A model generated the notes under the pieces. It was not told the origin of the DNA and made no database searches. It worked only from the letters and a program-made list of their open reading frames with translations. DNA of 55,524 bases from Hyphomicrobiales bacterium. GTDB taxonomy: Bacteria; Pseudomonadota; Alphaproteobacteria; Rhizobiales; Hyphomicrobiaceae. Location of the stretch: positions 1 to 55,524 of the forward strand of contig JANXRM010000477.1 in assembly GCA_025353015.1 (NCBI GenBank), read 5' to 3'. Shown here one piece after another: positions 35,372-51,198 of this stretch. Positions within the stretch are counted from its first letter, which is position 1, and each line of letters opens with the position of its first letter. The translations under genes and the position numbers were made by a program.

Positions 35372-35457
35372 CAGGTACCTGTGATGTTCGAGCCGGCATA
35401 AACCGGCCCATTGAAAGCAACCTTTCAATTGTCGCCCATCCATCCTATATTAGGTTT

Positions 35458-35539
35458 GCCGGATTCGTCCGGCTATGGCGATAAATGGACGTCGTAATAA
35501 ACTTTTCGGACCCGGGGGCGGTACCCGGCGCCTCCACCA
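35458..35539 (+). ncRNA. ssrA: tmRNA acceptor piece of a circularly permuted two-piece ssrA gene (5' end approximate)
   Basis: T arm CCGGG-GGCGGTA-CCCGG followed by CGCCTCCACCA; CGCCTCC pairs over 7 bp with GGGGGCG at 35634-35640. Confidence 0.85.
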
Positions 35540-35540
35540 A

Positions 35541-35633
35541 TTCAGGGATCAGGAGCCAGGGATCAGGAATCAGGGACTTGCGGTTGCAACGATCGCCCCT
35601 GATCCCTAGTCCCCGATCCCTGGTCCCTCCTGA
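35541..35633. repeat. heptad-repeat inverted element inside the tmRNA spacer between pieces
   Basis: AGGGATC AGGAGCC AGGGATC AGGAATC AGGGAC... and ...CCCTGAT CCCTAGT CCCCGAT CCCTGGT CCCTCCT. Confidence 0.8.
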
Positions 35634-35845
35634 GGGGGCGAAATAGGATCGACGAGGGTGTAAAGGACTATCTTTTGCCCGGCATGATACCGCCGTTATC
35701 GGGTCACCAGAATAGTTGCAAATGACAACTATGCTGAGGCTGCTCTTGCCGCGTAATGCGGTCGGATTAGCCTAAACTTGAAGCCCTGGCGGCTAGCCCC
35801 GTCAGGCGCGGTTCGGAGGGCACCGGGCAACAGAAGCCCTCCATT
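35634..35845 (+). ncRNA. ssrA: tmRNA coding piece, tag reading frame 35718-35756 encoding ANDNYAEAALAA* (3' end approximate)
   Basis: GGGGGCGAAATAGGATCGACGAGGG 5' end; GCA AAT GAC AAC TAT GCT GAG GCT GCT CTT GCC GCG TAA; 3' hairpin GGAGGGC...GCCCTCC. Confidence 0.9.
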
Positions 35846-35850
35846 TCATC

Positions 35851-35881: not shown

Positions 35882-35926
35882 TGTAATCCGGGTGTGTGTA
35901 ATCTGGGTGCGTGTGATCTGGGAGTT
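35882..35926. repeat. three imperfect 15-bp tandem repeats upstream of sspB
   Basis: TGTAATCCGGGTGTG / TGTAATCTGGGTGCG / TGTGATCTGGGAGTT. Confidence 0.8.
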
Positions 35927-35950: not shown

Positions 35951-36697
35951 ATGACGGCAGGGCAACACATTGACTATGAGGCTCTGCAGCAGGAGGCAAT
36001 GCGCAGCGTCGTGCGCGCCGTGCTGATCAAGGTTGCCGAAACCGGCCTCGTTGGCGATCATCATTTTTATATTGCGTTCAATACCCAGGCACCGGGCGCC
36101 AACATTTCGAAACGGCTGAAGGAAAAGTACCCGCACGAGATGACGATCGTGCTGCAGCACCGCTTTTGGGATCTGGAAGTCGGCGAAGAGCGTTTCGAGG
36201 TGAAGTTGACGTTTGATGGCATCCCCGAACGTCTCGTGGTGCCCTTCCAGGCCGTGAAAGTCTTCTACGACCCGAGCGTGCCGTATGGCCTGCAGTTTGA
36301 AGAATCCGAGCTGATGGCGGACCAGTCGCGCCGGTCGCCGGGAATGCGCCGCCCCGACGACGGGCTGGGCGATAGCGACACCGAAGGCCCCAATGGGCTC
36401 GACAACGCGCAGCGCCTCAACATGCGTCCAGGCAATGCTGACCGGAGCGACAAGCGCCGCCCGCCGCGCCGCCCCCGGACCGACAGGCCAGACGAATCGA
36501 GGCCAGTTACAGGACCGGTGGAAGTCAAACCGGCGGCCACCCGCATGGATGGCGATGCCAAGCCGACGCCGCTGCCGATACCGGCGTTGAGCCCGGCCGG
36601 CAAGCCGCAGTTGACCGAGGTGAAATCGGACGACCCGCCACGGGGGGATTCCGGCGGCGCCAAGGTGGTCGATCTCAGCAAATTCCGGAAGAAATAG
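35951..36697 (+). CDS. sspB: SspB-family ClpXP adaptor (alphaproteobacterial type)
   Basis: IDYEALQQEAMRSVVRAVLIKVAETGLVGDHHFYIAFNTQAPGANISKRLKEKYPHEMTIVLQHRFWDLEV; C-terminal VVDLSKFRKK tail. Confidence 0.92.
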   Translation: MTAGQHIDYEALQQEAMRSVVRAVLIKVAETGLVGDHHFYIAFNTQAPGANISKRLKEKYPHEMTIVLQHRFWDLEVGEERFEVKLTFDGIPERLVVPFQAVKVFYDPSVPYGLQFEESELMADQSRRSPGMRRPDDGLGDSDTEGPNGLDNAQRLNMRPGNADRSDKRRPPRRPRTDRPDESRPVTGPVEVKPAATRMDGDAKPTPLPIPALSPAGKPQLTEVKSDDPPRGDSGGAKVVDLSKFRKK

Positions 36698-49287: not shown

Positions 49288-50264
49288 GCAAAAGCCGCTC
49301 AAAGATCGGCCAGAAGAAAACAGTCGCACCAGTAGGGCCGATGTTCAAGCGGATCGCGCTGATCGGTATCGGGCTGATCGGGTCGTCGATCAGTCACGCT
49401 GCACGGCGGGCGGGGCTGGCGGGCGAGATCGTCGGCGCCGCGAAAACGGAGGCGACGCGGGCGACGGCAATCAAGCTCGGCCTGATCGCCAAAGGCTATG
49501 CGGATGCCCGCGAGGCTGTGCGCGGCGCTGATCTCGTCATTCTCTGCGTGCCCGTTGGCGCTTGCGGAAAGATTGCCGCCGAAATCGGACCGCATCTGGA
49601 ACCAGGCACCATTCTCACTGACGTCGGATCGGTGAAGGGCGCCATCGTCCGCGATGTCGGCCCGCATGTGCCCGCAGGCGTGCATTTCATTCCGGGACAT
49701 CCGATCGCCGGAACGGAGCATTCGGGGCCGGAGGCTGGCTTTGCAGAGCTCTACGACAATCGCTGGTGCATTCTGACGCCATTGCCGGGTGCAGATGCGG
49801 TTCACGTGACGCGGCTGCGCACGTTCTGGGAAAAGCTCGGCTCCAACGTCGAGATCATGGACGCCGATCACCACGACCTCGTGCTCGGTATCACCAGCCA
49901 CGTGCCGCATTTGATTGCGTTCAACATCGTCAATACGGCTGCCCATCTCGAACGGGTGACCGACAGTGAGGTGATCAAGTTTTCGGCCGGCGGTTTCCGT
50001 GATTTCACGCGGATCGCGGCCTCTGATCCCACTATGTGGCGCGACGTGTTCCTGAACAACCGAGAGGCGGTTTTGGAAATGCTCGGACGGTTTACGGAGG
50101 ATCTCATCCATTTGCAGCGGGCCATCCGCTACGGCGATGGCGACACGCTGTTCGATCTTTTCACCGAGGCCAGATCCATCCGCCGCGGCATCATCAAGGC
50201 GGGTCAGGATACGGCGGCGCCGGATTTCGGGCGCCCGCATGGCGCGCAGACGGAGAAGAAGTGA
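49284..50264 (+). CDS. prephenate/arogenate dehydrogenase
   Basis: [62 protein letters not shown] overlap with hisC. Confidence 0.93.
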
Positions 50265-50267
50265 TCT

Positions 50268-50344
50268 AGGGATCAGGGATCAGGGATCAGGGATCAGGGA
50301 TCAGGGATCAGGGGCCGGGGATTAGGGGCCGGGGATCAGGGACA
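50268..50344. repeat. heptanucleotide tandem array (11 units, six perfect AGGGATC)
   Basis: AGGGATCx6 AGGGGCC GGGGATT AGGGGCC GGGGATC AGGGACA, starting 3 nt after the tyrA stop. Confidence 0.95.
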
Positions 50345-50436
50345 AAAAGGGAAAAAAAGACAAAATGGCAGATGGTTTGCGGGACTTCCGGAATCGAGAA
50401 TGCACTTTCATCGTCCTTTACTCGTCCCCAATTCTT

Positions 50437-50478
50437 TAGTTGTCCCTTGTCCCTCACTGATCCCTGGTTCCTGATCCT
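50437..50478. repeat. opposite arm of the heptad-repeat element, ending at the chaC start
   Basis: TTAGTTGTCCCTTGTCCCTCACTGATCCCTGGTTCCTGATCC; 50457-50477 is the reverse complement of 35546-35566 with one mismatch. Confidence 0.8.
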
Positions 50479-51198
50479 TTGCACCCAGCATCCGACATTT
50501 GGATCTTCGGCTACGGCTCGCTTATGTGGCGGCCCGACTTCCCGTTCGTGGAGCGGGCGCGGGCAACCGTCGATGGCTACCATCGGTCGTTCTGCATCCG
50601 CTCGACGCATCATCGGGGCACGAACGCACGGCCCGGACTGGTGCTGGGCCTCGATCGCGGGCGGACCTGCACCGGTATCGCCTACCGGATCGCGGCCGAG
50701 CATGCAGCGTCCGTGATCGGCTATCTTCGAGAACGAGAGCTGATCTATGGAGTCTATCGCGAGACGTCGGTGATCGTGCGGCTCGATAATCAAGGTCAGG
50801 GAGATGCGGCCGGCGCCGGCTCGGGAACCGGTGGTCACGCTCACGTCCGGGCGCTGGCCTACGTGGTCGAGCGCAGCCATCCGAGCTATGCCGGCCGCCT
50901 GCCATTGGACAAGCAAGCTCGCATCATCCGCGCGGCCCGTGGTTCTGCGGGCGATAATCTCGACTACCTGTTCAATACGGTGTTTCTGCTCGCCGAACTC
51001 GGTATCCGAGAACCCGATCTGGTGCGGCTGCTGGGGATCGCTGGTCCGATCGCGGCACGCGGGGCCAAGCAAGTGCTGCAGCGGCCGGGTGTTGCCGCGC
51101 TGAGAGGATCATTGGCGCAACGGGCGTCTGCGCTGCCGCCACTTCCAGCAACGGATTTGCGTCGGTTCGGTTATCGATTGCGCGGTTCGGCAGACTAA
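50479..51198 (+). CDS. ChaC-like glutathione-specific gamma-glutamylcyclotransferase
   Basis: DIWIFGYGSLMWRPDFPFVERARATVDGYHRSFCIRSTHHRGT; RELIYGVYRETSVIVRL; TTG start. Confidence 0.9.
   Translation: MHPASDIWIFGYGSLMWRPDFPFVERARATVDGYHRSFCIRSTHHRGTNARPGLVLGLDRGRTCTGIAYRIAAEHAASVIGYLRERELIYGVYRETSVIVRLDNQGQGDAAGAGSGTGGHAHVRALAYVVERSHPSYAGRLPLDKQARIIRAARGSAGDNLDYLFNTVFLLAELGIREPDLVRLLGIAGPIAARGAKQVLQRPGVAALRGSLAQRASALPPLPATDLRRFGYRLRGSAD

Follow-up and report, generated by a model that had tools for sequence, protein, structure and literature searches.

The ssrA gene and its spacer

We analysed a 55,524 nt stretch of the genome of a Hyphomicrobiales bacterium (Hyphomicrobiaceae; assembly GCA_025353015.1, contig JANXRM010000477.1; hereafter the window), which carries a two-piece alphaproteobacterial tmRNA gene, ssrA, on the forward strand at 35419–35847. 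The gene matched the full RF01849 model with 304.8 bits (35419–35845) in the permuted layout of acceptor piece, spacer, coding piece and tag reading frame, and ARAGORN likewise called a tmRNA with the tag ANDNYAEAALAA. Reading of the sequence placed the CCA end of the acceptor piece at 35539 and the start of the coding piece, with GGGGGCGAAAT, at 35634. The tmRNA pieces of Sinorhizobium meliloti have been mapped at 82 and 214 nt (PMC2873474), and the ends in the window fit these sizes: the predicted mature acceptor (tRNA-like) piece would occupy 35458–35539, its 5′ end being placed by the 82 nt length borrowed from S. meliloti, and the predicted mature coding piece (35634–35847) has the same 214 nt length as its S. 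meliloti counterpart. Directly 3′ of ssrA, and outside the element described below, lies an sspB-like adaptor gene on the same strand (35951–36697; PF04386, 5.5e-45). SspB is the adaptor that hands ssrA-tagged proteins to ClpXP. We also noted an imperfect 15 nt tandem repeat, TGTAATCTGGGTGCG, present in 2.7 copies between ssrA and sspB (35882–35922).

According to its sequence, inverted repeat, Tandem Repeats Finder (TRF) output and fold, the predicted excised spacer of 94 nt (35540–35633, forward strand) is mostly a heptad hairpin. On the 5′ side is an array of AGGGATC, AGGAGCC, AGGGATC, AGGAATC and AGGGAC (35542–35576, forward strand; TRF period 7, 5.0 copies), and on the 3′ side an array of inverted heptads, CCCTGAT, CCCTAGT, CCCCGAT, CCCTGGT and CCCT (35597–35628, reverse strand; TRF period 7, 4.6 copies), with TRF periods in the spacer of 7 and 14 overall. 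Between the arrays is a 20 nt apical loop (35577–35596) that forms a small hairpin of its own, and the 3′ edge of the spacer, TCCTGA (35628–35633), is similar to the edge in congeners. The two arms of 32 nt are mutually inverted, making up the complementary ends of a long stem, and the predicted fold of the spacer RNA has −48.5 kcal/mol (z = −4.6), a stability that 0 of 200 shuffles reached. The original prediction had the entire spacer consisting of heptads facing inverted heptads; the facing arrays are real, but heptads cover only approximately 67 of the 94 nt, and the apical loop is non-heptad.

Copies of the heptad array elsewhere in the genome

The AGGGATC unit was found in at least eight arrays in the genome, on contigs C146, C295, C414, C513, C360 and C46, with two more in the contig of the window. 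Genome-wide, AGGGATCAGGGATCAGG had 35 matches with at most two mismatches compared with 0 in three congeners (G001–G003); this absence is a better control than the reversed pattern, which is a weak one because it is itself a heptad. Most copies consist of direct heptads, a loop and inverted heptads, and lie in apparent intergenic gaps. The ssrA arms are 87–95% identical to the other arrays, with variants such as AGGGACTAGGGATCAGGG in common.

A second copy within the window comprises a direct array of approximately 11 units identified by TRF in an intergenic gap (50263–50342, forward strand), closed by inverted heptads (50440–50480, reverse strand), with a fold of −102.5 kcal/mol. This copy (50263–50480) is missing in all three congeners, where the flanking genes are separated by a short heptad-free gap. 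When arrays were defined by a threshold of 20 identities out of 28 at lag 7, a scan of the window returned two, the ssrA spacer and 50259–50328, and the same scan of 780 kb from 12 relatives returned none. Features of a dispersed palindromic (MITE-like) element are seen in the many copies of the unit in this genome, in the empty sites of relatives at 50263–50480 and at the C513 locus described below and, for ssrA itself, in congener spacers that have no heptads. The central claim of the original prediction, that the predicted excised segment of ssrA houses a palindromic heptad element of dispersed type, is supported both by the element's absence from the three congeners and by dispersal of the unit throughout the genome. 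We found no clear target-site duplication at the copies that were read in this genome, saw no transposition and identified no mobiliser.

ssrA spacers in related genomes

Spacers were compared from 89 ssrA genes of the order and approximately 46 more of the class, approximately 135 in all. A spacer hairpin is usual among the relatives (median z of −2.1 in the order set, against mononucleotide shuffles), with a sequence that varies freely. The three congeners have plain heptad-free hairpins of 59–63 nt with folds of −26 to −37 kcal/mol, compared with −48 kcal/mol in the window. The hairpin had also been taken as a new feature that would bring the two tmRNA pieces together; this part of the prediction was not upheld, as the spacer of almost every relative also forms a hairpin, though its sequence is unrelated.

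Heptads were present in the spacers of two genomes out of approximately 135, a proportion that is not an unbiased frequency because the longest spacers were taken preferentially beyond the first 100 genomes. The two are the window's genome (G000) and G074, which belongs to another family of the order and has an ssrA heptad, TGTCAGGTATCAGG, with 84 occurrences on approximately 35 contigs and 0 for the reversed control. In both genomes the heptad in ssrA is that genome's own dispersed heptad. Given that the hairpin is general in this set, and that heptads occur in two spacers, each time as the genome's own dispersed unit, we conclude that the hairpin is ancestral and that heptads have recently replaced its sequence. 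A conserved tmRNA feature was rejected because heptads are present in only 2 of approximately 135 spacers, and in-place slippage within ssrA because the ssrA unit is identical with the dispersed unit in both genomes. What was found is the reverse of a spacer sequence conserved from an ancestor and without copies elsewhere, the one pattern that the original prediction had named as incompatible with it.

Heptad arrays flank genes for the 23S rRNA intervening-sequence protein

The copy on contig C513 contains an open reading frame between inverted AGGGATC arrays that encodes a 23S rRNA intervening-sequence protein (IVP or S23p, a four-helix bundle). The protein matched PF05635 (E = 5.7e-39) and TIGR02436 (E = 5.6e-38), has relatives with solved structures (2gsc and 2rld) and matched the retroelement protein Avd weakly. 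It is encoded by the sole IVP gene found in this genome. The original prediction made no mention of this protein family. The insert of approximately 460 bp is absent between the same two genes in G001 and G002, where the gap is 48–56 nt compared with approximately 505 nt.

To relate IVP genes to heptads in general, 59 IVP loci were sampled without regard to heptads, 28 from 100 relatives, 17 from a phylum sample and 14 from plasmids, covering Hyphomicrobiaceae, other Pseudomonadota, cyanobacteria and Gemmatimonadota. Arrays of period 7 or 8 were found within approximately 150 nt of the IVP gene at 53 of these 59 loci (24/28, 16/17 and 13/14, respectively), which are not all independent events because some have an inherited site in common. 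Of 98 control segments, 2 scored as highly at lag 7 and 1 at lag 8; hits at lags 4–6 and 9–12 were occasional. The flanking unit varies by genome (GCGAATA, GTGAGTA, GTAGGCA, GGGATTA, GGGAACA and others), the downstream array often repeats the upstream array in inverted form, and IVP copies on cyanobacterial and Gemmatimonadota plasmids have a like architecture. Among Rhizobiales the IVP gene was co-oriented with its neighbours at 26 of 27 loci, the orientation of the neighbours being taken from codon-position GC since the longest open reading frame is unsuited to high-GC DNA with its antisense frames.

No arrays were present in 400 kb away from IVP in six IVP-positive genomes sampled, so IVP is not always accompanied by dispersal, and a genome-wide heptad load that is a simple function of IVP was rejected on the same data. 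G044 has dispersed heptads and no detected IVP, and in G074 the heptad flanking IVP (GCGAATA type) is unlike the ssrA and dispersed heptad. There was no IVP remnant in the loop of the ssrA spacer or in other loops.

Comparison with 23S rRNA intervening sequences and other repeats

Intervening sequences (IVSs) of 23S rRNA genes that carry an S23p/IVP open reading frame (PF05635) are known from Coxiella, Leptospira and Brucella, and many known IVSs have no open reading frame. In our sample, a heptad-flanked IVP open reading frame on Azospirillum lipoferum AZO_p2 interrupts a 23S rRNA gene, with the RF02541 match spanning the frame. The Coxiella IVS has GACAGAT heptamers upstream of its S23p open reading frame and is excised by RNase III, which cleaves where the first repeat begins (PMC4990558). 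It follows from the Azospirillum example and the Coxiella heptamers that classical IVSs, at least these two, are heptad elements.

The ssrA insert resembles these IVSs in its inverted termini, which make a long stem, in end repeats of 7 (or 8) bp, as in the Coxiella GACAGAT heptamers, and in its position in a stable-RNA gene whose transcript is cut and not rejoined; the heptad-flanked Azospirillum IVP is itself an IVS. It differs in lying in tmRNA and not in rRNA, in having no IVP/S23p open reading frame (the C513 copy has one), and in occupying a segment that was already excised before the insert arrived. RNase III excision is published for Coxiella; for the ssrA stem, cleavage by RNase III or RNase E, which the original prediction suggested, is putative. 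Because of its location in ssrA, the insert is better described as working like an IVS than as a 23S IVS.

Several other repeats share part of this description. Rickettsia palindromic elements and REP-type MITEs are short palindromes, dispersed and lacking an autonomous gene, that can occur within genes as well as in intergenic gaps; they are not built of heptads, and REPs go with RAYT transposases and not with IVP. The ssrA insert is alike in being a small dispersed palindrome without a gene and unlike in being heptad-built. Cyanobacterial STRRs are strain-specific tandem heptamer arrays dispersed in intergenic gaps and permissive stable-RNA loops, including rnpB and the tRNA-Leu intron, and cyanobacterial IVP genes are adjoined by similar arrays; the element in the window differs in being alphaproteobacterial, with a different unit and facing inverted arrays, and in lying in a removed tmRNA segment. 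The TAACTGA repeats of Beggiatoaceae (PMC4679880) and the GGGACCG heptads of Geobacter metallireducens (PMC2700814) are likewise tandem heptanucleotides scattered mostly between genes, for which no carrier is known. Both have a different unit, lie outside ssrA and have no reported IVP association.

Origin of the ssrA hairpin

We consider it probable that the ssrA hairpin belongs, as a MITE-like form without an ORF, to the IVS/IVP heptad elements, apparently a widespread class whose members mostly encode an IVP and are known best from rRNA genes, and that it is tolerated because the segment is excised. Its assignment to the class is based on its heptads since it holds no IVP remnant. In its full form such an element would comprise a tandem array of 7 bp (sometimes 8 bp) units, the gene for the 23S rRNA IVP and the same array inverted, and in its RNA the arms would pair into a long stem. 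Elements of this kind would persist where the transcript tolerates or discards the hairpin, namely 23S rRNA (the classical IVS), operon spacers and the ssrA spacer. For tmRNA the insert would be close to neutral, because an ordinary hairpin was there before it and the spacer is predicted to be cut out when the two pieces are made. The stem may offer an RNase III-type cleavage beside normal RNase P and 3′ processing, with RNase III the presumed nuclease, and IVP or the heptad RNA may take part in mobility. The element may have moved into ssrA as a unit, and a replacement instead of a clean insertion is equally possible. Standing against this explanation are the mismatch between the two heptads of G074, the heptads of G044 without a detected IVP, the lack of arrays in the 400 kb sampled from IVP-positive genomes, the absence of an IVP remnant from the ssrA insert, and the lack of a visible target-site duplication or transposition.

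The first two of these observations, together with the many arrays, ssrA included, that have no IVP, are what would be expected if heptad arrays were independent selfish or slippage-grown repeats, like STRRs, seeding by recombination, with IVP merely landing in or near them and the ssrA copy unrelated to IVP. Many genomes have practically no arrays away from IVP (0 in 780 kb), yet arrays stand beside 53 of 59 IVP loci and are often inverted between the two sides; landing in pre-existing arrays would not give this proportion because arrays are so rare, and we regard independent repeats as unlikely. Recruitment of the hairpin for a function, as a stem used in processing or regulation to control how much tmRNA is made or how it matures and not just a tolerated parasite, would account for a stem more stable than those of congeners and is in keeping with the generality of spacer hairpins, which suggests that the stem itself matters, and with RNase III cleavage of the analogous Coxiella IVS stem (PMC4990558). 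The heptads are, however, not conserved, being two unrelated units in two distant genomes with none in approximately 133 others, which makes recruitment distinctly improbable. Least credible is ordinary drift of the spacer hairpin, whereby local slippage produced the 7 nt units with no mobile element involved: spacers are indeed hypervariable hairpins in all relatives, but the ssrA unit is the dispersed unit of its genome down to common variants such as AGGGACTAGGGATCAGGG, the same holds in G074, and heptads are confined to the two spacers.

Beyond the preferred reading of the ssrA hairpin as an IVS/IVP heptad element, we tentatively raise a wider possibility, which we think doubtful as it stands, that the heptad-IVP elements form a single widespread family, so far unrecognised, of mobile elements acting at the level of RNA. 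Their RNA would be marked by the heptad stem, to which the four-helix bundle of the Avd-like IVP would bind, and a reverse transcriptase acting in trans would copy the element into sites that are transcribed. This one system would have given rise to 23S IVSs, to STRR-like arrays and to the ssrA insert alike.

IVSs, S23p, STRRs and other heptamers are already known, each separately. In the openly searchable literature we found no paper linking heptad arrays to IVP genes in general and no description of a heptad or palindromic element in ssrA. The general heptad-IVP link is thus apparently unreported, provisionally so since most subscription literature lay outside the search. It ties together 23S intervening sequences, the unexplained S23p/IVP protein and dispersed heptamers such as STRRs, and tmRNA can now be counted among the stable RNAs that harbour heptad hairpins in segments they discard. 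What S23p does and how IVSs move are questions of long standing (PMC4990558), and both can be tested directly on a heptad-IVP unit that has clean empty sites. That ssrA was colonised twice independently, each time by the genome's own heptad, amounts to a natural experiment in how much the maturation of tmRNA will tolerate.

Other repeats in ssrA spacers and at IVP loci

Four further ssrA spacers contained repeats of other kinds. The 235 nt spacer of G466 (L313) has two copies of a non-heptad unit of approximately 80 nt, AGCGTACTTTTATGTACGTGAGTATT...ACCGGACCGACCGTACAGATGAGCT, and that of G566 (L328) is filled by three tandem copies of a hairpin unit of approximately 30 nt, GACCACCGGCTTTCGGGCCGGCGGTC. 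The spacers of G512 and G160 (L314 and L315) are long and resemble each other in style, both having palindromic sequence like CTACGAGC/CTACGCGAGC...GGCAAGCC, possibly another palindromic element family in ssrA.

At IVP loci, the arrays were of 8 bp instead of 7 bp in L187 and L190 (G148 and G168) and in L263 (a Gemmatirosa plasmid), with the units GTAGGGCA and GGGCAGGA. Two plasmid-borne IVP elements with arrays were located between cas genes, cas6/cas4 in Anabaena sp. 90 (L260) and cas10/cmr3 in Picosynechococcus (L268), and such positions may explain why IVP has been listed among cas-associated genes.
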